From assembly GCA_017449765.1 (NCBI GenBank), contig JAFTFE010000167.1, forward strand, positions 1-33,152: DNA of 33,152 bases, in the 5' to 3' direction. Below, piece by piece: positions 4,965 to 14,452 of this stretch; position 1 is the stretch's first letter; every line of letters starts with the position of its first letter. Source of the stretch: Lachnospiraceae bacterium (GTDB taxonomy: Bacteria; Bacillota; Clostridia; Lachnospirales; Lachnospiraceae). The position numbers and the translations under genes are program-made. The notes below the pieces were generated by a model. It saw nothing but the letters and a program-made list of their open reading frames with translations. It was not told where the DNA came from and ran no database searches.

Positions 4965-5447
4965 ATGGCAGATGAAAAGAAAAATATTTTTGTATCACAT
5001 TATCACGCAGATGCTGACAAAATAGAGGGGTTAAAAGATTTGATTGGAAGACATGGAGTGGATATGAGGGATAGCTCTATATATGAAGCAAAACTTAAGA
5101 ATAACGCAACTAATGAGAATTACATCAAATATGAACTCATAAAACCTCAAATACAGTGGGCAGGTACCGTAGTGGTCTTGATAGGTGATAAGACAGCCAA
5201 TAGTGATTATGTAGATTGGGAGATAAAGACTGCAGCAGAAATGGATAAAAATATAGTGGGAGTTTTCCTTCCGGGTGCAAAGGAGGAGGATGTTCCGCCA
5301 GCATTAAATGAGTATGGCAGTAATTTAGTGGGATGGAATGGTGAAAAGATCGTCGATGCTATTAATGGTGAAGAATTAGAATGGGAAAAGGCAGATGGTA
5401 CACCCAGACCCAATAATCCGGACGGAATTGATCACTATGAATGTTAG
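4965..5447 (+). CDS. ThsB-like TIR domain protein (MTH538/DUF1863 type)
   Basis: A stand-alone domain of 160 residues. It opens with NIFVSHYHADADKIEGLKDL, the first strand and BB-loop region of ThsB-type TIR-like proteins. It continues with a VVVLIGDKT strand and DWEIKTAAEMDKNIVGVFLPG, in which Glu86 is at the place of the conserved catalytic glutamate. In Thoeris systems ThsB proteins sense phage and make a cyclic ADP-ribose-type signal from NAD+. Here it is the first gene of a six-gene operon containing a TIR-SLOG protein, fitting a sensor plus signal-receptor pair. Purine-rich agggggt at about 4950-4956 precedes the start. A signal-making role is inferred from the family. Confidence 0.8.
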   Translation: MADEKKNIFVSHYHADADKIEGLKDLIGRHGVDMRDSSIYEAKLKNNATNENYIKYELIKPQIQWAGTVVVLIGDKTANSDYVDWEIKTAAEMDKNIVGVFLPGAKEEDVPPALNEYGSNLVGWNGEKIVDAINGEELEWEKADGTPRPNNPDGIDHYEC

Positions 5448-5459
5448 GAGATGGTGTTA

Positions 5460-6077
5460 ATGAAATTGTATTCGTATATTATAACAAGAGATTATGGTTT
5501 TGCACCAAATCCTTATGGGGGAATGTGTACACTGGCGACTTGTAAGCCTGTTATCAGGAGAAAAGCACAGATAGGTGATTGGGTTGCTGCAATAGGTGGT
5601 TCTTCAACACCGGTAAGCGGTAAAGTTGTGATGCTTATGCAGGTCCAAGATGCTTGTTCTTATGATGAATACTGGATGAATGAACAATACCGAAAAAAGA
5701 AGCCGGTTTTTAACAGAAGTATGAACGAAGCATATGGTGATAATATTTATCATCATGTTGATGGAAAATGGTACCAGGAATTGTCGCATCATAGTAAAGA
5801 TGATGGGAGTGTCAATTATGTAAATCTGGATCATGATACAGGTACAGACAGAGTTTTAATATCGGATAATTACTATTATTTTGGTAATAATGCAATTGAT
5901 ATTCCTGATGAGTTTTCAGCACTATTTAGGTGTGGTAGAGGTCATGGTGTTAATGAAGATACAGCTCTGATTAACGATTTTATCAGATACGTTCATAATA
6001 ATTACTTATGTGGCATTAATGGTACTCCGTTTAACAGACGTATAGGTGAGTTTGCACATTATAAAGGAGAACAATAA
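5460..6077 (+). CDS. Nmad2-like nucleotide-modification-associated domain protein
   Basis: About 205 residues beginning LYSYIITRDYGFAPNPYGG, followed by CTLATCKPVIRRKAQIGDWVAAIGG and a second strand block (GKVVMLMQV). This pattern, with a conserved early RDYGFAPNPF/YGG-type motif and paired strands, matches Nmad2, a domain predicted from association with DNA base-modification genes; its biochemistry is unknown to me. I chose ATG 5460 over ATG 5451 because taggag at 5445-5450, overlapping the previous stop, is correctly spaced for it. The two downstream genes related to thymine hypermodification support the call. Confidence 0.7.
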   Translation: MKLYSYIITRDYGFAPNPYGGMCTLATCKPVIRRKAQIGDWVAAIGGSSTPVSGKVVMLMQVQDACSYDEYWMNEQYRKKKPVFNRSMNEAYGDNIYHHVDGKWYQELSHHSKDDGSVNYVNLDHDTGTDRVLISDNYYYFGNNAIDIPDEFSALFRCGRGHGVNEDTALINDFIRYVHNNYLCGINGTPFNRRIGEFAHYKGEQ

Positions 6078-6079
6078 TA

Positions 6080-7927
6080 ATGAAATTTATATTTATTAAT
6101 CCTAAAATTACCATGAGTATAAATGATAAGGCAAAGGATTTTTATAATGGGGCTAAAGAGATATTTGATGAATATTTGACATCATACGTATATGTTGATT
6201 CTTTGATGCAATTTAATCAGATTTGTGCAGGAGCTATAGATAAAGATGATATAGTTGCTTTTTTTACATCTGAGACAGGAGAATATTCTAAGACAGCCAT
6301 CGATTTTTTTGAAAAATGTAAAAGGTCACAATGTAGAGTGTGGGCTATTGCAACGGAGGGAAATACTGAGTGCAGAACACCGCCAAAACCTATTGATAAA
6401 TATCAGAGTTTTGATGTAGCAAGCCGCAATGAAAATAGAAATCCTTTAAAAAATAATATGCGTGCTATTGCACAGATTTTTGCACGAAAAGTAATATCTC
6501 AGACATTATCTCCTTTTTATAGGGATGAAGTGTTGTATTTTATCTCTCATAAAAGAAGTGATGGAGAACATCTCGCTGCAAGATTGGCAGATGCTCTTAG
6601 AAACTTGACTCGAGAAAGAAATGTATACAGAGATGTTGTTAATGTTGAAGTGGGACAGGAAGCCCAAGAGGATATTGATAAACATCTATCGGTTAGTGAT
6701 GTATTGATTTTTTTGCAGACCGAAGAATCCTCAGAATCCTGCTGGATTATCAAGGAATTAAGTTATGCGCTATTGAATGATATCCCAGTGTTATGGATAC
6801 AGATAGATGATGCACCATATAAGAAATTGGATATTATTCCAGGAGAAAAGCCAAGTTTGAGATATTCAAGAGAAGAATTTGATGATGCGAATAGACTTGA
6901 AGAGATTGTTAATGAAGTGGAAGAAATGTGCTTTCAATTGATAATGCAGTCATCGGATCAAGTTTTTACATATATTGAGTATCTTAGTGATATGGATAAA
7001 TGCAATAAAATACAGATGATACCAGATGAAAAATCTATATTATCATATAATATCCAATATAAATCTGATTCTGTGGATTTGTATGCTGATAATATTAAGC
7101 ATTATATACAATGTTTTGGTAGGAATCCCCAAAAAAATGATGTAGATATTTTTTTGCAGCGAATGGAAGATGTTGAATTTTGTAAGAATGCCGATAATAT
7201 TTTCCTGTTATCAAATCACGGAAAAAGAAAAGACAAGTATGAGAATGGGAAGTTTATTGAAGAAAACTATGATGATTACATCATGAATTTGGAAAACGTT
7301 ACCGGAACAAAAAGGGATTTTTTAAACAGGAAGATAATAATTTCAGGTGCATTTCCAGATTGTGATGAGATATATAAGAATTCATTGCTAGAAGCACTGA
7401 TTGTCTATTCGCGAGAGATAATAAAAAATGGTTATACATTGGTGTTTGGTGCACATCCAACTTTTCAGAATTTGATTTTCGATATAGGCAGATTATATTC
7501 GCGAGATGTTAGAAAATCTATCGAGATGCATATGGATAGTATACATATGAATGAATATCGTAACACGGGTATAGAAGATAAATGTACTTTGATCATATCA
7601 GACGGATTAGATAATATGCGTAAAAAGATGATATCCGATAACGCTGCGGATATGCTTATTTGCATGGGTGGTAAGATAAAAGAAGATATTAGACAACAAG
7701 GCGTTGATGATGAGGTTAAGAAGGCGAAGGACGCTGGGATACCAGTTGCGCTTGTTGGGACGGTAGGCGGAAGATCCAGTGAAATGGCGCATGAGATTAT
7801 TACTAATTCAAGCAAATATGAATGGGATGATTTAAATTCATGGGGTAAAGATTTTAATGAAATGCTGTTTTATAATATCAATCACAGACTAATGATTAAG
7901 AAATTGTTGGAAAAGATTAGTATGTGA
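6080..7927 (+). CDS. TIR - SLOG fusion protein
   Basis: 615 residues. Residues 1-140 are an alpha/beta region I do not recognise (FIFINPKI...; DIVAFFTSETGEYSKTAIDFF). Residues about 150-290 are a TIR domain: VLYFISHKRSDGEHLAARL, VYRDVVNVEVGQE, DVLIFLQTEES, and CWIIKELSYAL with Glu226 as the likely catalytic glutamate. Residues about 415-575 are a Rossmann-like SLOG domain (KIIISGAFPDCDEIYKNS; NGYTLVFGAHPTFQ; ADMLICMGG; GIPVALVG), a fold that binds nucleotide signals such as cyclic ADP-ribose isomers in Thoeris ThsA. The likely mode is signal binding by SLOG switching on NAD+ cleavage by TIR. It follows the Nmad2 gene after two bases. Domain identity is firm; mechanism is inferred. Confidence 0.85.
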   Translation: MKFIFINPKITMSINDKAKDFYNGAKEIFDEYLTSYVYVDSLMQFNQICAGAIDKDDIVAFFTSETGEYSKTAIDFFEKCKRSQCRVWAIATEGNTECRTPPKPIDKYQSFDVASRNENRNPLKNNMRAIAQIFARKVISQTLSPFYRDEVLYFISHKRSDGEHLAARLADALRNLTRERNVYRDVVNVEVGQEAQEDIDKHLSVSDVLIFLQTEESSESCWIIKELSYALLNDIPVLWIQIDDAPYKKLDIIPGEKPSLRYSREEFDDANRLEEIVNEVEEMCFQLIMQSSDQVFTYIEYLSDMDKCNKIQMIPDEKSILSYNIQYKSDSVDLYADNIKHYIQCFGRNPQKNDVDIFLQRMEDVEFCKNADNIFLLSNHGKRKDKYENGKFIEENYDDYIMNLENVTGTKRDFLNRKIIISGAFPDCDEIYKNSLLEALIVYSREIIKNGYTLVFGAHPTFQNLIFDIGRLYSRDVRKSIEMHMDSIHMNEYRNTGIEDKCTLIISDGLDNMRKKMISDNAADMLICMGGKIKEDIRQQGVDDEVKKAKDAGIPVALVGTVGGRSSEMAHEIITNSSKYEWDDLNSWGKDFNEMLFYNINHRLMIKKLLEKISM

Positions 7928-7936
7928 GGAGCCGCA

Positions 7937-8911
7937 ATGGATTTAAATGAATTAAAACCAACCAAAGTTTATGATACATATTGGGAGTTTGCTTATAAAA
8001 GGCAAGAGATATTTTTTAACAGATATAATAATATGCCTTCACCATGGACAAATGATCCGATTTTACAAAAATATAAGTTTACTAATGTTTATAGGGCGTC
8101 TGATCGTGTGAGTCAGTACTTGATAAAAAATGTTATATATAGCAATAAGCAGTATAGTCCTGAAGATATGTTATTCCGTATTTTACTGTATAAAATATTT
8201 AATAAGATTGAAACATGGGAGTATTTGGAAAAAAGGCTCCAGGATATATCATATAAATCTTTTAATAAACAATCATACGATATATTGTTGGATGAGTTGT
8301 TGAAGAATGGGATTTCGATATATTCAGCTGCTTACATTATGCCATCCGGAAAAAGCAGTTTTGGATATGGCAAAAAACACAAGAATAATCTTGAACTTCT
8401 CGAGTTTATAATGAAGGATGGTCTGTCAATTAAAATTGCCAAAGCAAAATCTATGCAGGAGATATATGATCATTTAAAGGATTATCCCATGTTGGGTGAT
8501 TTTCTGTCGTTTCAATATTTAATAGATATTAATTATAGTGAACTGTGCGATTTTAGTGAGATGTCGTTTGTTGTAGCTGGACCTGGGGCTAAAAGAGGGA
8601 TACGAAAATGTTTTGAAAATGCTGATAATTATCTTGAAGAGGATATCATCCGATTAGTATGTGAAAGACAGAAGCAGGAGTTTAATGAACGAGGATTAAA
8701 ATTTAGAGATTTATTTGGAAGACAAATGCAGTTGATTGATTGCCAGAATCTTTTTTGCGAGATTGATAAGTATGCAAGGGTGGCGTATCCGGAATTTTGT
8801 CAAGTGAAGGGTAAAAGAATAAAGCAGCAATATAAAAATAGAAGTTTGCCTCAGATTCAATACTACTTTCCGCCAAAGTGGGAAATAAATCAAAACATGG
8901 AGAAAGGTTGA
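7937..8911 (+). CDS. Alpha-glutamyl/putrescinyl-thymine pyrophosphorylase or 5-hmdU DNA kinase-like helical protein
   Basis: 324 residues, predicted mostly helical. Features resembling the HhH-glycosylase-like aGPT-PPlase/HMUDK helical family are LLYKIFNKIETWEYLE (83-98), the hairpin VAGPGAKRGIRKCF (213-226) and the C-terminal motif QLIDCQNLFCEIDKYARVAYPE (split at 265-286). Characterised relatives in phages activate 5-hydroxymethyluracil in DNA before hypermodification. Here the gene lies seven bases before a thymidylate synthase/hydroxymethylase homologue, exactly the expected source of a hydroxymethylated pyrimidine. Start ATG 7937 has gaggag nine bases upstream. Whether it works on DNA or on free nucleotides in this bacterial operon is not known. 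Confidence 0.7.
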   Translation: MDLNELKPTKVYDTYWEFAYKRQEIFFNRYNNMPSPWTNDPILQKYKFTNVYRASDRVSQYLIKNVIYSNKQYSPEDMLFRILLYKIFNKIETWEYLEKRLQDISYKSFNKQSYDILLDELLKNGISIYSAAYIMPSGKSSFGYGKKHKNNLELLEFIMKDGLSIKIAKAKSMQEIYDHLKDYPMLGDFLSFQYLIDINYSELCDFSEMSFVVAGPGAKRGIRKCFENADNYLEEDIIRLVCERQKQEFNERGLKFRDLFGRQMQLIDCQNLFCEIDKYARVAYPEFCQVKGKRIKQQYKNRSLPQIQYYFPPKWEINQNMEKG

Positions 8912-8917
8912 TGTTAT

Positions 8918-9910
8918 ATGGCAAATGCTTTCTGTGGATTAACAGCAAATGATGTCTGGAAGGATGCGTTCGCTTACTTAAAGGCAAAAGGGAAACAAAG
9001 TATTAGTAGAGAAGGAGATACACAGGAAATACTGCATGTTCTTATGACGATTGAAGATCCACGACAAAGATGGGTATATGACAGATTTCCATCCATGAGT
9101 ATCGCTTTTGCCCTTGCTGAAATAATATGGATATTGAATGGAACGGATGAATCAGAAGTTATTAACGAATGGAATCCATTATTATCTAGTTATGCGGGTA
9201 ATGGTGATAGATATTATGGTGCTTACGGGAAACGAATAAGAAAACATTATGGATTTGACCAATTAGAACGTACATATTATGCACTACAATCTGTTCCGGA
9301 AAGCAGACAAGTAGTGATACAGATTTATGATACAGAAATTGATATGCCATTAGATGATGGAAAACCAAGAAGCCAAGATATTCCATGCAATATATGTTCC
9401 ATGCTCAAGATACGGGATGAAAAACTTGAATGGTCTCAAATAATGAGAAGTAATGACATATTTAGAGGTATGCCATATAATTTTATTCAATTTACAACAA
9501 TTCAGGAAATAATGGCAGGATGGCTTGGGTTGGATGTTGGAGCATATAGCCATTACTGTGACAGCTTACATTTGTACGAAAAGGATTATGCCAGAATATC
9601 CAATAATGGATTAGATGCAAACAACGATATTTTGGGTATTAATAAGTTGGAGACGGATCAGCTTATCAAAGAAATATATGAAAGAATGAAATGCCTGTGT
9701 AATAAAAAAGTTGATGAAAAAACTATTGCCAAATTAGCATTCTTGAATTCTGAGCATGTAGCATACAACAATATGATGTTGATTATTGCAGCATATATTG
9801 CCCAGAGAAGAAAATTTAATGTTCTGGCCGAGGAACTTGTTCATAAATCGACTAATGTGTTGTACCAAGGAATGTGGCAAAGATGGAAAGAAGACAGAGG
9901 TTATAGCTAA
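8918..9910 (+). CDS. Thymidylate synthase / deoxypyrimidine hydroxymethylase family protein
   Basis: 330 residues of the ThyA superfamily. Visible active-site elements: Glu68 in ALAEIIWILNGTDE, Arg130 in ESRQVVIQI, nucleophile Cys157 in SQDIPCNI, MRSNDIFRGMPYN (176-188) and SHYCDSLHLYEKD with His218 and Tyr220. Asn188 aligns with the uracil-binding asparagine of thymidylate synthase, suggesting dUMP rather than dCMP as substrate. The sequence diverges from housekeeping ThyA, resembling phage dUMP hydroxymethylases that make 5-hydroxymethyl-dUMP, but methylation versus hydroxymethylation cannot be decided by eye. It sits in a TIR operon directly after an aGPT-PPlase-like gene, so a specialised base-modification role is more likely than dTMP supply. 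Confidence 0.85.
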   Translation: MANAFCGLTANDVWKDAFAYLKAKGKQSISREGDTQEILHVLMTIEDPRQRWVYDRFPSMSIAFALAEIIWILNGTDESEVINEWNPLLSSYAGNGDRYYGAYGKRIRKHYGFDQLERTYYALQSVPESRQVVIQIYDTEIDMPLDDGKPRSQDIPCNICSMLKIRDEKLEWSQIMRSNDIFRGMPYNFIQFTTIQEIMAGWLGLDVGAYSHYCDSLHLYEKDYARISNNGLDANNDILGINKLETDQLIKEIYERMKCLCNKKVDEKTIAKLAFLNSEHVAYNNMMLIIAAYIAQRRKFNVLAEELVHKSTNVLYQGMWQRWKEDRGYS

Positions 9911-9951
9911 TTGTATTGATAGTAAAAGTCTATAGCAGGAGGGAGATAAAG

Positions 9952-10758
9952 ATGTTTGCTGGGTTTAATGTTCTTGTAGATGATAAAGATGGTTTTCGGA
10001 AATATTATAAAGTTGGTGATGAAATGTATACTAATCAAAAAAAGGCTATTAATGAGAGTTTGGGCAAATATATTAATCCTGATGGATCATTATGCGAGAG
10101 GATAATTGAAGAAAAGTGGTTTCCGGACATAAATGCACATGTTTTTCTTTCGCACTCACACAACGATTTGGATTTCGTTATATCTTTTGCCGGCTGGTTG
10201 TATGAAAAATTTGAAATAGAGGCATTTATAGATTCAGGAGTGTGGCATAATTCCGATGATTTACTCAGGAAAATTGATAATAGGTACTGTGTATCTTTGC
10301 GTGATGAAAATGGTAATATTAAATCATATGATTACAAAACAAGGAACAGATCAACAAGTAATGTTCATATGATATTGTATACAGCTTTGATGAAAATGAT
10401 CGATAGAACAGAGTGTCTGATGTTTATTAATACTCCGTCATCCTTAAAATGGGTTGATATGATCACTGATGATTCAGCGACTACATCGCCATGGATTTAT
10501 GGTGAGCTCCTTGCTTCAAAGCTTATAAGAAACAGATCAAGGAAAGAGCACAGGGCCCAGCATAATTTGTTTTTTGAGCATGCTGATGAAAATTATCAAA
10601 ACCTTGAGATAGAATATAATATTAATACAAAACATTTAATAGATATTAATGATTACAATTTAAAACTGTTTGAAGAATCAGCGTATGAATATAAAGATGC
10701 ATATGATGCTTTGGACAATTTTTATTTACAAAATAATATAGATACCAGAAATCTGTAA
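9952..10758 (+). CDS. TIR domain protein, third TIR of the operon
   Basis: 268 residues with start ATG 9952, set by aggaggg at 9937-9943; the frame is open further upstream without good initiation signals. After a 60-residue N-terminal segment comes a TIR fold: HVFLSHSHNDLDFVISFAGWL, a shortened-helix segment EAFIDSGVWHNSDDLL, CLMFINTPSS, and SPWIYGELLASKLI with Glu185 as the expected catalytic residue. The TIR is drawn out by an insertion (about 110-140) and the tail is acidic and helical. It closes the six-gene operon. The family predicts NAD+ hydrolysis or cyclisation; its division of labour with the other two TIR proteins is unknown. Confidence 0.75.
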   Translation: MFAGFNVLVDDKDGFRKYYKVGDEMYTNQKKAINESLGKYINPDGSLCERIIEEKWFPDINAHVFLSHSHNDLDFVISFAGWLYEKFEIEAFIDSGVWHNSDDLLRKIDNRYCVSLRDENGNIKSYDYKTRNRSTSNVHMILYTALMKMIDRTECLMFINTPSSLKWVDMITDDSATTSPWIYGELLASKLIRNRSRKEHRAQHNLFFEHADENYQNLEIEYNINTKHLIDINDYNLKLFEESAYEYKDAYDALDNFYLQNNIDTRNL

Positions 10759-10902: not shown

Positions 10903-11904
10903 ATGGAAAAGAAATATCAAATTTTTATTAGTTCAACATTTAAAGATTTAGAAAAGGAAAGAAATTCTATTATAAAAACAACCTTAAGAGCAAATTGCTT
11001 TCCTGCAAGTATGGAGTGGTTTCCTGGAATTGATGAAGAGCAATTTGAATATATAAAACAAGTAATAGATTATTCTGACTATTATGTCATTATTCTGGGC
11101 GGATTATACGGAACAATAGCTTCAGATGGAATAAGTTATACCGAAAAAGAATTTGATTATGCAAAATCGAGAAACAAAAAAATAATTGCCTTAGTACAAA
11201 AAAACCCAATTGAAAAAGAGTCGGAAGATGAACGTATTGTAAAATACACAAATTTTCATAAAAAAGTGACAAGCGAAAGGCTTATTAGCTATTGGACAAA
11301 CCCTGAAGAACTAATATCAATATATGCAACAAGTTTAGAACAAACAATAAATAAATTCTTTTCACAAGGATGGGTCAGATGTAATGTTGCTAAGTGTAAT
11401 AAAAGATTGGAATTTGTTGATATAAATTCGAAAATAACAGCAATTCAAATCAAAAATATCAGTTCTATACATATAATGGCAAGTGGTACATTTTCATATA
11501 TTCAAATCGTTAAAAGTTTATTAAAAGCAAACAATCTTTATAATAGAACTGTTAATGTATATATCAACTTTAGACTTGGTGAAGATCAAGAAAGAATAGA
11601 GTTGTTAAAACGGCATTATAATAAATTATGGATGAATTTATTTGAGGAATTTCCTAAATTAAAATTTCATTTTTCTTGTGTAAAAAATTTTAAGGTAAGT
11701 TTTAGAGGAATTATTGTAAATAAAAAGAAAGGATTTATAGGTTTCTATGTTCGTAATAATGATAAAATATTTGGACCGCTAGATAATTGTATTTATGTAG
11801 ATACAAATACTGATATAGGTAAATATATTATTAACTATTACTTAAAATGTTTTGAAAAACAGACCTATTACTCATCATTAAAAGAATGTATTGAATCTTT
11901 TTAA
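10903..11904 (+). CDS. DUF4062 (TIR-like) domain protein with uncharacterised C-terminal domain
   Basis: 333 residues. The N-terminal 110 residues are a DUF4062 domain: YQIFISSTFKDLEKERN, then SDYYVIILGGLYGT and YTEKEFDYAKSRNKKIIALV. DUF4062 is a TIR-related alpha/beta fold frequently found at the N-terminus of bacterial conflict proteins. The remaining residues are basic and aromatic-rich (HIMASGTFSYIQIVKSLL; KKKGFIGFYVRNNDKIFG), perhaps a degenerate PLD-like sensor domain; I cannot name it. Aggagg at 10890-10895 supports ATG 10903. The stop overlaps the next ATG (TAATG), so it is translated together with the P-loop kinase. It shares an upstream inverted repeat with the convergent TIR gene. 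Confidence 0.75.
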   Translation: MEKKYQIFISSTFKDLEKERNSIIKTTLRANCFPASMEWFPGIDEEQFEYIKQVIDYSDYYVIILGGLYGTIASDGISYTEKEFDYAKSRNKKIIALVQKNPIEKESEDERIVKYTNFHKKVTSERLISYWTNPEELISIYATSLEQTINKFFSQGWVRCNVAKCNKRLEFVDINSKITAIQIKNISSIHIMASGTFSYIQIVKSLLKANNLYNRTVNVYINFRLGEDQERIELLKRHYNKLWMNLFEEFPKLKFHFSCVKNFKVSFRGIIVNKKKGFIGFYVRNNDKIFGPLDNCIYVDTNTDIGKYIINYYLKCFEKQTYYSSLKECIESF

Positions 11905-12587
11905 TGAACATATTAAAACATAAATCGGAGAATAGGCAAATGAATAGAATAGAAAAGGACTTAAGAATACCAAATGGATTTATTTTGTTTCTGTCAGGTG
12001 TTCCTGGAGTTGGAAAAACAACTATATCATATGAACTTCTTAAAAGAATTAATTCATTTAGAATTATTGAGGAAACAGATATTATAAGAGAAATACTTCG
12101 TGGATATAATCAATATTTGAAATATGATCTAAATATTGAAAAAAACATTTTCAAAGATATCAATATATCAGATCACACAGTATTGCTAGATTATGACAAT
12201 GCGAAAAAACAATGTATACTAATGAAGAAATCAATTGAACATATAATATTGAGACAACAACGAAAAGGTATTGCAACTATTATTAATGGTGTTCATGTAA
12301 TACCAGAAATATTATATGATATTATAAGTGATAATTTTGTGTTTATTAATTTGTATGTTACAGATGAAAATGAAATATACAATAGGATTGTTAACAGAAA
12401 TCCCTCATCATACATGCTTGAGCATATACCTTTTATTTATAAATCAAATACAGAATTGTTTTCCAATACAGAAAAAGTAATTTCAATGTGTAATTATAAT
12501 AATATATTCAATATTAATGTCACAAACTTATCTGTTGATGACACAATTGAATTGTGTGTTAGGAAAATAAAAAAATACCTAAAATAA
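11904..12587 (+). CDS. P-loop kinase, 2-phosphoglycerate kinase-like
   Basis: 227 residues. Walker A is GVPGVGKTT (32-40), followed by FRIIEETDIIREILRGYN, which parallels the STDxIREVLR segment of 2-phosphoglycerate kinases, and by KGIATIINGVHVIPEIL, paralleling their EGVHLVPG segment. It therefore belongs to the small-molecule kinase branch of P-loop enzymes; the substrate here is unknown and need not be phosphoglycerate. ATG 11904 overlaps the preceding stop; ATG 11940, with cggag nine bases before it, is an equally plausible start giving a 215-residue protein. Pairing with DUF4062 and the facing TIR gene suggests an immune or toxin-like function. Its end is 35 bases from the end of the convergent TIR gene. 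Confidence 0.7.
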   Translation: MNILKHKSENRQMNRIEKDLRIPNGFILFLSGVPGVGKTTISYELLKRINSFRIIEETDIIREILRGYNQYLKYDLNIEKNIFKDINISDHTVLLDYDNAKKQCILMKKSIEHIILRQQRKGIATIINGVHVIPEILYDIISDNFVFINLYVTDENEIYNRIVNRNPSSYMLEHIPFIYKSNTELFSNTEKVISMCNYNNIFNINVTNLSVDDTIELCVRKIKKYLK

Positions 12588-12622: not shown

Positions 12623-13702
12623 CTAAAATAAATCTTTAGCATTATCCCATACACTTTCAAATTTTTTAATGCATTCTACTCCTTTTTTTGAAGTTGCACT
12701 AAACACTTCGAACATTGTGTTAGTTATTATTTGAGGATAACCATTTTCATCAAAGTGGGGTTTTGAATAGAGAATACAATTGTCAAGACGTATTATTATT
12801 TCATCACGCCGATGTGAATATTTTCTAAAACACTTTTTTATTAATTTATTATCTCCAGTTAAATGTGCTGCCCTTTTTATAGTTGAATTAAGCTCATTAA
12901 AAAAAATATCTTGTGCTTTATGAGCAAATTTGACTTCTGGAGATGATGGGTCAAGAAAAAGGCAGCGAAAATCAATGCCATACATATCAGTATTAACAGT
13001 TTTTTCGTCTAAATAGCGAAACAATTCCTCATGGTGTAATATCAATTTCATATTTTTTCTACCATAAATCCATAAATATTTTCCAGTATACAGAAAAGAT
13101 TCAATAATATTTTTCCATAATTCAAGAGTCTCAAATCCTGTAAGAAAATATGCTGTTCTATTTTTATAAATTGGACTTTTAACCTGAAAAGCATCGTCAG
13201 AGGCAAGAGTTTCAACAAATTCTTCACATTGAATATCTATCTTTCGATATTTTTCTTTGATTTCCTCTACTTCTAATACAAATTGTTTTATTGCTTCGCG
13301 AATAAATGTGGAATCATGAAGTTCAAATCCACTAATAAATGATTCTACAAAATTAGGAGACGACATATTAATTTCACGTGCATAATTCATAGGATTGTCT
13401 ATCCATGAATCCCAACAAGGGTCTTTGTCAAATAGTATGGGAATTGTCTTTTTGTTCATGCCATGAGCCAATCCGGCTTCATATAAAAGCCATGGAGATT
13501 TTTTGTTCTCATGTGTAAAACATATTACCAATTCATTGCAGGAAGCAATTTGATCATTAATTTTTGAATGTACTTCTTCTCCTGCAATAATATCACTCTC
13601 AGAAATAAATGTCTCAATATCAAAGGACTCTAGAAAATTTTTTAATACATATGCCAAATCACAACTTTTTGATTTAGACCAACTTATAAAAATCTTTCGC
13701 AT
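12623..13702 (-). CDS. TIR domain protein with uncharacterised C-terminal sensor-like domain
   Basis: 359 residues, on the opposite strand to its neighbours. Residues 1-95 are a TIR domain: RKIFISWSKSKSCDLAYVL, ISESDIIAGEEVHSKI, ELVICFTHENKKSPWLLYEAG with likely catalytic Glu75, and KKTIPILFD. The C-terminal 170 residues (YLWIYGRKNMKLI; GIDFRCLFLDPSS; YSHRRDEIIIRLDNC) look like an inactive PLD-type or other ligand-sensing domain, not identifiable by eye. The start is placed at 13702 rather than 13750 because gcggag lies seven bases before it and the longer form would run over another ggagg. A 25-bp repeat shared with the DUF4062 gene lies 15 bases upstream of its start. Confidence 0.8.
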   Translation of the reverse strand: MRKIFISWSKSKSCDLAYVLKNFLESFDIETFISESDIIAGEEVHSKINDQIASCNELVICFTHENKKSPWLLYEAGLAHGMNKKTIPILFDKDPCWDSWIDNPMNYAREINMSSPNFVESFISGFELHDSTFIREAIKQFVLEVEEIKEKYRKIDIQCEEFVETLASDDAFQVKSPIYKNRTAYFLTGFETLELWKNIIESFLYTGKYLWIYGRKNMKLILHHEELFRYLDEKTVNTDMYGIDFRCLFLDPSSPEVKFAHKAQDIFFNELNSTIKRAAHLTGDNKLIKKCFRKYSHRRDEIIIRLDNCILYSKPHFDENGYPQIITNTMFEVFSATSKKGVECIKKFESVWDNAKDLF

Positions 13703-13716
13703 TTTTTTCTCCGCTT

Positions 13717-13741
13717 TTATAAGATAATCATCAATTATCCT
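13717..13741 (-). repeat. 25-bp inverted repeat, right copy, with internal dyad
   Basis: Exact reverse complement of 10844-10868. It lies immediately upstream of the minus-strand TIR gene, with the dyad at 13723-13739 and a TATAAA reading toward that gene. Works as an operator/promoter candidate or as a terminal repeat of the module. Confidence 0.7.
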
Positions 13742-13772
13742 CCATAACATTTGACAAAAACAACCTTTTAGA

Positions 13773-13876: not shown

Positions 13877-14452
13877 ATGATTGAGAAGCTGGCTGATAAA
13901 ATGATTGAATTTCAAGTGTCAAAAGGAACTATACATAGTGAGGACGCTAACATATACCGGTATGGATATATTTTGTTATTTGAAATTATTATTAATATAT
14001 TCATATCATTTTTAATGGGGATTCTGCTTGGGAAAATTCAAGAGGTTATTTTTTTTCTGCTGCTTTTTATCACACTAAGAAGTTTTTGTGGAGGATATCA
14101 TGCAAAGAGAATATGGGAATGTATTGTTTTATCAAATGCTGTTATGGCATGTGCAATAGTTATTAATATATATTTTGGCAAATATGTGCTGCCAGTTTTA
14201 TTGTATGTTACAATAGTAATTGTGTTATCGGTGATTATCTGTAGCATGGCACCTGTTGATAATAAGAATAAGAGGTTAAATGAAAAAGAGAGAATTTTTT
14301 ACAAGAAATGTTCAATAATTACGGCCATTATTGAAAATGGTATTGGGATTACTATGATATTACTAGGTCAATATAGCTTTGCTTATATTGTTATATATGT
14401 ATATATAATTCAGCTCATTTCAATTATTATCGGGAAAAGATGTAAAGGGTAA
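13877..14452 (+). CDS. agrB: AgrB-like autoinducer-processing membrane endopeptidase
   Basis: 191 residues, the normal AgrB length, with about five or six hydrophobic segments. The catalytic region RSFCGGYHAKRIWECIVLS places His75 and Cys82 at nearly the same positions as the His77/Cys84 pair of Staphylococcus aureus AgrB. The N-terminal amphipathic part (MIEKLADKMIEF...YRYG) and the mid motif APVDNKNKRLNEKE are also typical. It should cut the AgrD C-terminal tail and form the thiolactone. The only agrD in the window is 9 kb upstream, so pairing is inferred. No second agrD is visible next to it. Start ATG 13877 has only a modest ggtgat Shine-Dalgarno. Confidence 0.93.
   Translation: MIEKLADKMIEFQVSKGTIHSEDANIYRYGYILLFEIIINIFISFLMGILLGKIQEVIFFLLLFITLRSFCGGYHAKRIWECIVLSNAVMACAIVINIYFGKYVLPVLLYVTIVIVLSVIICSMAPVDNKNKRLNEKERIFYKKCSIITAIIENGIGITMILLGQYSFAYIVIYVYIIQLISIIIGKRCKG

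Follow-up and report, generated by a model that had tools for sequence, protein, structure and literature searches.

Gene content of the operon

The window analysed here is the whole 33,152 nucleotide contig JAFTFE010000167.1 (assembly GCA_017449765.1) of a Lachnospiraceae bacterium. An open reading frame (ORF) check of the window found six co-directional ORFs on the forward strand at 4965..10758, here named g1 to g6, in agreement with an original prediction from the sequence, which had described a six-gene TIR operon with gaps of 2 to 41 bases. The gaps are 3, 2, 9, 6 and 41 bases when g6 is read from the ATG at 9952, which is preceded by AGGAGG; with an alternative TTG start at 9916 the last gap is 5 bases. 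The operon brings together TIR and SLOG genes and genes of nucleotide- and base-modifying families, and across phyla these families are inherited together, with the effector changing while the TIR-like/Nmad2 core stays constant. The same locus is also present in a second assembly (L003), with a 100% identical g5 and with equal lengths and equal scores for genes 1–6.

The original prediction's three TIR proteins (ThsB-like, TIR-SLOG and TIR) are borne out by Pfam and PADLOC models. The 160 aa product of g1 (4965..5447, +) is a ThsB-type TIR that matched Pfam ThsB_TIR at 1.5e-21, over the cut-off, and PADLOC ThsB at 9.1e-52, and its last residue is Cys160. g3 (6080..7927, +) encodes a 615 aa TIR-SLOG protein with matches to TIR_2 (1.2e-9) and to the STALD SLOG (1.5e-8). 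The second ThsB-type TIR, g6 (9952..10758, +; 268 aa counted from the ATG), matched Pfam TIR_2 at just 0.0048, under the Pfam cut-off, and its assignment rests on the PADLOC ThsB models (2.7e-71); family matches are strong for g1, g2, g4 and g5 and good for g3. The predicted catalytic Glu has a candidate in each TIR protein, E86 in g1, E226 in g3 and E185 in g6 (ATG numbering). The SLOG part of g3 aligns with ThsA 8wc0, and R514, K532 and E545 meet the same residue types there, which in ThsA are presumably signal-binding. The g3 product is likely an NAD+-consuming effector, and the ThsB-family matches together with the SLOG support the Thoeris-like character proposed for this part of the operon.

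g2 (5451..6077, +) encodes a 208 aa Nmad2 domain protein (1.5e-63), in which C31, K32, D43, D97, H114 and D129 are invariant across 20 aligned sequences. A tblastn search of 50,697 phage records (E 1e-3) found no match to Nmad2. The 324 aa product of g4 (7937..8911, +) matched HMUDK_hel at 6.6e-107 and, besides this, just DUF772, below threshold. As the Pfam scan gave no P-loop kinase match to g4, the 5-hydroxymethyldeoxyuridine (hmdU)-kinase-like label that it had been given is unsupported. Profile comparisons using hhalign gave weak alignments of HMUDK_hel with Nth (E 0.024, probability 2%), MutY (0.0058, 6%), AlkA (0.07) and ASCH (0.71), and those of Nmad2 were also weak (ASCH 0.052, 1%; Nth, MutY and AlkA 0.19–0.22); the Nth set included one longer MutY-like row and the ASCH set was one row short. 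A glycosylase-like or PUA-like fold for either family is only a lead, and EVE was not found among 41 relatives.

g5 (8918..9910, +) encodes a 330 aa member of the thymidylate synthase (TS) superfamily, with a match to Thymidylat_synt (7.2e-21) that is over the general Pfam cut-off; it also matched seven NCBIfam TS models, each below its cut-off. It had been called a thymidylate synthase/hydroxymethylase homologue, and the hydroxymethylase side is favoured, since its best solved relative is the CMP 5-hydroxymethylase MilA (3.6e-25), versus 2.7e-10 for the best thymidylate synthase. Its best phage matches include gp29 of the SPO1 group, recorded as 'dUMP hydroxymethylase' (about 31% over 74% of the query), and some Enterococcus phage proteins score as high. 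The predicted catalytic Cys157 is present. Across ten aligned rows, gp29 and the host TS among them, no substitution occurs at E68, C157, R177, S178, N188, H218 or Y220; as the host TS shares these residues, they alone do not separate a hydroxymethylase from a TS. N188, at what we take to be the position where TS selects uracil over cytosine, is Asp in MilA. The host's own TS is a separate gene (L002), next to an ORF that from its appearance we assume to be DHFR. g5 is probably an extra, dUMP-hydroxymethylating paralogue. Because dUMP hydroxymethylase is a better reading of g5 than TS, a modified pyrimidine nucleotide is plausible, and can fairly be inferred, as the product of the cassette.

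Recurrence of the neighbourhood

The neighbourhood recurs in three other genomes, two of them from Lachnospiraceae and the third from another member of the Bacillota, with changed gene order and other SLOG subtypes. The order is ThsB-Nmad2-TIR-SLOG-dTMP-kinase-like-HMUDK_hel-TS in L006, ThsB-Nmad2-HMUDK-TS-TIR-SLOG in G498 and, beginning at a contig end, Nmad2-TIR-SLOG-[dTMP kinase fused to HMUDK]-TS in G319. L004 and L005 have a truncated start followed by SLOG, kinase, HMUDK and TS genes. The SLOG in G498 and G319 is cluster2, not STALD, and g3 aligns with the G498 TIR-SLOG over no more than the TIR and a short piece of the SLOG. As the SLOG subtype differs between loci, the effector varies while the enzymes stay. 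HMUDK_hel was found in two of 398 Bacillota genomes and Nmad2 in the same two, one of them the window's own. Among 299 Lachnospiraceae genomes, Nmad2 was found in two (the window's own and G498), each with ThsB, HMUDK and TS. Co-occurrence in other genomes, the test proposed for the original prediction, was thus found in L006, G498 and G319, but not as exactly six genes. A homologue of g6 was met solely in the window locus and in the identical L003 assembly, and g6 was dropped as a core part since it is confined to this locus. A 278 aa ORF (L070 3002-3838, −), which lies beside the G498 TIR-SLOG gene in a g6-like place, gave no hit to Pfam and is not significantly similar to g6.

Nmad2 was sought more widely by searching every open frame at E 1e-5 or better, which gave 28 loci from plasmid records, viral-contig loci and genome loci. 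The set is what the searches reached and not a random sample; it derives partly from metagenome-assembled genomes and viral contigs, and copies (L003, L020, L031 and overlapping genome fetches) were left out. The 28 are distinct records, some of them near kin (L060/L061, L064/L065). In 72,556 plasmid records, HMUDK_hel relatives were found in 22 and Nmad2 relatives in 16, with five records common to both and 0.005 expected if the two were independent; all 16 records with Nmad2 and 12 of the 22 with HMUDK were inspected. Because distantly related bacteria share this partnership of signalling proteins and modifying enzymes, a chance association is very unlikely.

HMUDK is present in nine of the 28 loci (the window, L006, L008, L013, L055, L064, L065, L070 and L071), and a UDG-superfamily gene in 12 (L019, L021, L022, L054, L056, L058–L063 and L078), 11 of which also have MazG. 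No locus has both. The remaining seven have neither: L057 (with MazG, at a record end), L066, L067, L075 (with TS), L076, L077 and L079. TS-type genes were found in seven of the 28 loci, patatin in four and SIR2-STALD in one. L006 and L054 add a dTMP-kinase-like gene, which in L071 is part of a fusion, L022 adds one that is dCTP-deaminase-like, and L064 has an annotated O-methyltransferase to which L065 has a homologue. The SIR2-STALD gene, which has the ThsA domain pair, is directly 3' of a ThsB-Nmad2-MazG_C-UDG core in Cupriavidus (L059), and a TIR and SLOG cluster3 pair is 5' of that core. From their families, most of the listed partner genes presumably act on deoxyuridine-type nucleotides or bases.

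Parts of the original prediction need to be redrawn. The conserved unit is not the six genes but a TIR-like gene, Nmad2 and an HMUDK or UDG relative, g6 being locus-specific. The thymine-hypermodification-type enzymes that the prediction placed at the centre of the operon are conserved in the locus, but the MazG_C, UDG, dCTP-deaminase-like and dTMP kinase genes of relatives point to deoxyuridine chemistry generally and not to thymine hypermodification alone.

Other contexts of HMUDK_hel were also recorded. It was found without Nmad2 beside an ImmA/IrrE-type peptidase gene in L007, L009, L010, L012, L016 and L023–L025, and six of these eight loci also have MazG or dCTP-deaminase-like genes. A gene annotated as thymidylate synthase is present in L009 and L010 (without a Pfam match in L009), and helix-turn-helix genes are annotated in L009, L010, L012 and L016. 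In two Sphingomonadales plasmids (L011 and L015), HMUDK_hel directly follows an exonuclease/DnaQ gene and precedes dnaE, and in an Acinetobacter plasmid (L014 7977-8929) it is split in two annotated genes and is probably decayed. Brevibacterium phage LuckyBarnes (L073 2846-6861) has a TS homologue, two annotated glycosyltransferases and HMUDK_hel in a row, likely a thymine hypermodification cluster.

The TIR-like partner of Nmad2 and its Cys tail

A TIR-like frame lies directly upstream of Nmad2 in 21 of the 28 loci, in five phyla and in 22 copies. Frames were counted as partners when they ended no more than 12 bases from the Nmad2 start and matched a g1-family profile at E 2.5e-4 or better; the profile was made from ten of these proteins, tails included, and weak matches, of which L019 and L021 are the weakest, may lean on the tail. 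The partner loci comprise all 12 UDG loci, eight of the nine HMUDK loci and L057, and in the ninth HMUDK locus, L071, the partner gene would fall off the contig. No upstream match to the profile was found in the remaining six Nmad2 loci: the upstream frames in L067 and L075 are unrelated, L066 and L076 have no upstream frame, and although a Cys happens to lie near the C-terminus of the frames in L077 (113 aa) and L079 (which stops 65 bases before Nmad2), neither frame matches.

A Cys is present within the last five residues of 22/22 TIR-like partners, degenerate TIRs included, a figure that reflects conservation and not independent trials, the sequences being related. The tail is seen in all 20 aligned partners, six of which (L019, L021, L022, L060, L061 and L063) are without the SH-type TIR motif. 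As the tail is kept though the TIR degenerates, we conclude that the Cys tail, and not NAD+ cleavage, is the constant feature of the partner. By way of background, 84 of 1037 ORFs, some partners among them, have a Cys in the last five residues, and nine other TIR or TIR-neighbour proteins from these loci have no such tail.

The partners also diverge in step. Using identity-based distances, ThsB-tail and Nmad2 correlate with r=0.79 (Mantel p 0.0005) over 14 pairs chosen from the 22, with degenerate partners, L056 and L078 left out. The corresponding values are r=0.82 for Nmad2 and HMUDK (n=8, p 0.0005) and r=0.67 for ThsB-tail and HMUDK (n=8, p 0.0025).

Comparison with known systems

The operon resembles Thoeris in its ThsB-family TIRs (g1 and g6), its SLOG effector and its more than one ThsB per locus, and its relative L059 carries SIR2-STALD behind the core. 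It differs in having a TIR-SLOG effector, embedded Nmad2, HMUDK_hel and hydroxymethylase-like genes, and the Cys tail of g1. In the available text on Thoeris, ThsB signals activate SLOG effectors, TIR base exchange is known, and the ThsA effectors reported are SIR2-SLOG or TM-macro (PMC11204291). As the effector of the operon, g3, is a TIR-SLOG, and a SIR2-STALD gene was seen only in L059, we describe the operon as Thoeris-like and not as a member of Thoeris. Type III Thoeris likewise has TIR and SLOG parts, and g3 matched both NCBIfam models weakly (ThcB4, 57.8 against a cut-off of 220 bits; ThcA, 26.7 against 110), so by those models it is not a member.

Kongming (KomA/KomB/KomC, dITP) shares with our proposal the idea of a base-modified deoxynucleotide that triggers NAD+ loss; in the accessible portion of its description, that nucleotide is made with dNMP kinases (PMC12948488). 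Here, pyrimidine enzymes replace KomA and TIR-SLOG replaces KomB/KomC, and no homology is claimed. The Pfam scan of genes 1–6 gave no deaminase or SIR2 match (Kom-specific models were not run). With phage hydroxymethyluracil synthesis of the SPO1 type the operon has in common the relationship of g5 to gp29, but no phage structural gene was seen around the operon when the ORF list was inspected by eye, and Nmad2 is unmatched in the phage records searched.

The DefensePredictor paper of 2026, which tested its systems in E. coli MG1655, reports for validated E. coli defence systems a 5-hydroxymethyluracil kinase as well as a thymidylate synthase domain, and a figure legend also names a dNMP kinase and NMAD; its section 8 gives MazG, MazG-C, aGPT-Pplase and another NMAD as predicted, not yet validated domains (PMC13092281, in the sections available). 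The operon and its relatives share domain names with these systems, and the likeness is one of name. The main text does not contain the words TIR or Thoeris and gives no layout for the systems with TS, dNMP kinase, 5hmdU kinase and NMAD (PMC13092281). E. coli genomes were searched three times at the DNA level without a match; searches of this kind probably do not reach these distances. The available text credits Burroughs 2015 (gkv1267) with predicting several such domains in defence (PMC13092281), and this combination may have been predicted there. No paper describing TIR/SLOG together with Nmad2/HMUDK/TS was found in the literature searched, where the TIR-SLOG/ThsA link, the pairing of a TIR-like protein with Nmad2, the Cys tail and the mutual exclusion of HMUDK and UDG were not met either. 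The E. coli validation of same-named domains, as far as that text describes it, lowers the novelty of the operon without removing it (PMC13092281).

Proposed mechanism and alternatives

We infer an immune role, a signal and a modified base. Tentatively, and with somewhat less than an even chance of being right, we read the operon as a Thoeris-like, NAD+-depleting abortive-infection system whose trigger or signal runs by way of a deoxyuridine-derived nucleotide. Judged by its family and residues, g5 would convert dUMP to 5-hydroxymethyl-dUMP (hmdUMP). A deoxynucleotide kinase, supplied in some relatives by their own dTMP-kinase-like gene and in the window by the host, the phage or the downstream gene g8, would lift hmdUMP to the di- or triphosphate. 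HMUDK_hel and Nmad2 would serve to handle the modified nucleotide or base, or to read it. Phage infection would alter the modified pool, and the Nmad2-paired ThsB TIR, switched on via its Cys tail, would make an ADP-ribose signal. By the precedent of ThsA, the TIR-SLOG would bind that signal and destroy NAD+. This reading draws on the conserved core with its alternative HMUDK and UDG partners, the full neighbourhood in L006, G498 and G319, the SIR2-STALD gene of L059, the matching distance matrices, the shared plasmid records, the hydroxymethylase-like character of g5 beside a separate host TS, and the Kongming and E. coli precedents.

Several observations weigh against this. The Glu position is lost in four of the 20 aligned partners (L019, L021, L022 and L063), and because of this NADase activity is not the conserved role of g1. 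No TS-type gene was found in the examined stretch of any of the 12 UDG loci, and therefore cassette-made hmdUMP cannot be the signal in every variant; the UDG and MazG_C variant speaks against one fixed signal. HMUDK_hel lives in many loci without Nmad2, PDB profile searches with Nmad2 and HMUDK_hel gave nothing credible, the matched divergence partly reflects shared ancestry, and the model has no account of host self-toxicity of hmdUTP.

A wider proposal, which we consider rather unlikely in its full form, is that the TIR-like protein and Nmad2 together sense deoxyuridine-derived nucleotides or bases, whether made (TS/HMUDK) or released (UDG/MazG_C) by an enzyme pair dedicated to this. Nmad2 would modify or bind the partner's C-terminal Cys, and SLOG effectors, whether TIR-linked, SIR2-linked or stand-alone, would deplete NAD+. 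This would be an undescribed branch of bacterial immunity, in which Thoeris is joined to an equivalent of Kongming that uses a pyrimidine.

The operon could instead mark self, with g5 and g4 giving host DNA a low level of uracil that is hydroxymethylated or modified further, Nmad2 reading this mark, and unmarked or wrongly marked phage DNA triggering the TIRs. The LuckyBarnes grouping of HMUDK_hel with a TS homologue and two annotated glycosyltransferases fits this, as do a TS homologue near HMUDK in 13 of 31 viral-contig loci and the mutual exclusion of HMUDK and UDG, as if both act on DNA bases; the weak alignment of an HhH-like HMUDK stretch with Nth and MutY would at most point the same way. 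However, modification by way of the nucleotide pool would not spare phage DNA, the Pfam scan found no DNA-recognition domain in g1–g6, and UDG and MazG_C loci would be expected to remove modified uracil, not add it. We regard self-marking as unlikely.

Detection of hypermodifying phages is improbable in our view, though relatives of g4 and g5 do occur in phages (456 and 1252 records, respectively) and one glycosylase, Brig1, is known from the available part of its report to attack a modified base of phages (PMC11078745). Here, phage-made hmdU nucleotides or bases would be what Nmad2, HMUDK and UDG sense, with the TS homologue acting as a decoy or converter. But g5 keeps its catalytic positions, which a decoy would not need, and Nmad2 had no match in the phage records searched.

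In a further variant, the modified base or nucleotide itself would serve the ThsB TIR as its acceptor or its substrate, so that a pyrimidine-ADP-ribose-type signal for SLOG results. In the accessible text of two sources, the TIR base-exchange products IAD and His-ADPR are known and the active site of one ThsB subfamily resembles deoxynucleotide hydrolases (PMC11204291, PMC12948488). The Glu position is absent in four upstream partners, and we regard this variant as very unlikely. Least probable is a Thoeris system that merely adjoins an unrelated nucleotide-metabolism cassette in a defence island: g6, g7 and g8/g9 differ between loci, and HMUDK occurs without Nmad2 alongside ImmA/IrrE-type and MazG genes (L009, L010 and L012), but this reading, already strained by co-occurrence, would have to account for recurrence in shuffled order in several phyla, the shared plasmid records and the matching divergence of the distance matrices.

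Downstream and flanking genes

Downstream of g6, a DUF4062 protein gene (10903-11904; 1.9e-25) overlaps by one base the P-loop kinase-like gene g8 (11904..12587, +), which is convergent with a TIR protein gene, g9 (12623..13750, −). A homologous convergent pair is found directly 3' of the TS gene in L004 (3834-5717), and the pair may be an accessory part. g8 as a substitute for the absent dTMP kinase was considered and dropped, as L004 has both. Judging by appearance, we take the ORFs at 13877-14452 of the window and at 189-1511 of L003, which flank the cassette, to be AgrB-like and sensor-kinase-like, as if the cassette had been inserted in an agr-like locus. A 681 aa ORF at 716-2761 presumably joins a methyltransferase-like to a nitrilase-like domain.

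Significance

In this operon, a gut bacterium seems to possess an alarm against viruses that combines signalling proteins of a familiar type with enzymes that chemically alter a building block of DNA. If the reading we favour, a Thoeris-like system signalling through a deoxyuridine-derived nucleotide, is true, phage-type thymine modification enzymes would be tied to NAD+-based immunity, and there would be a second route of signalling by a base-modified deoxynucleotide, this time a pyrimidine. The roles of Nmad2 and HMUDK_hel would become testable, with the conserved C-terminal Cys of the partner as a new handle, and the spread over phyla and plasmids points to a working system.

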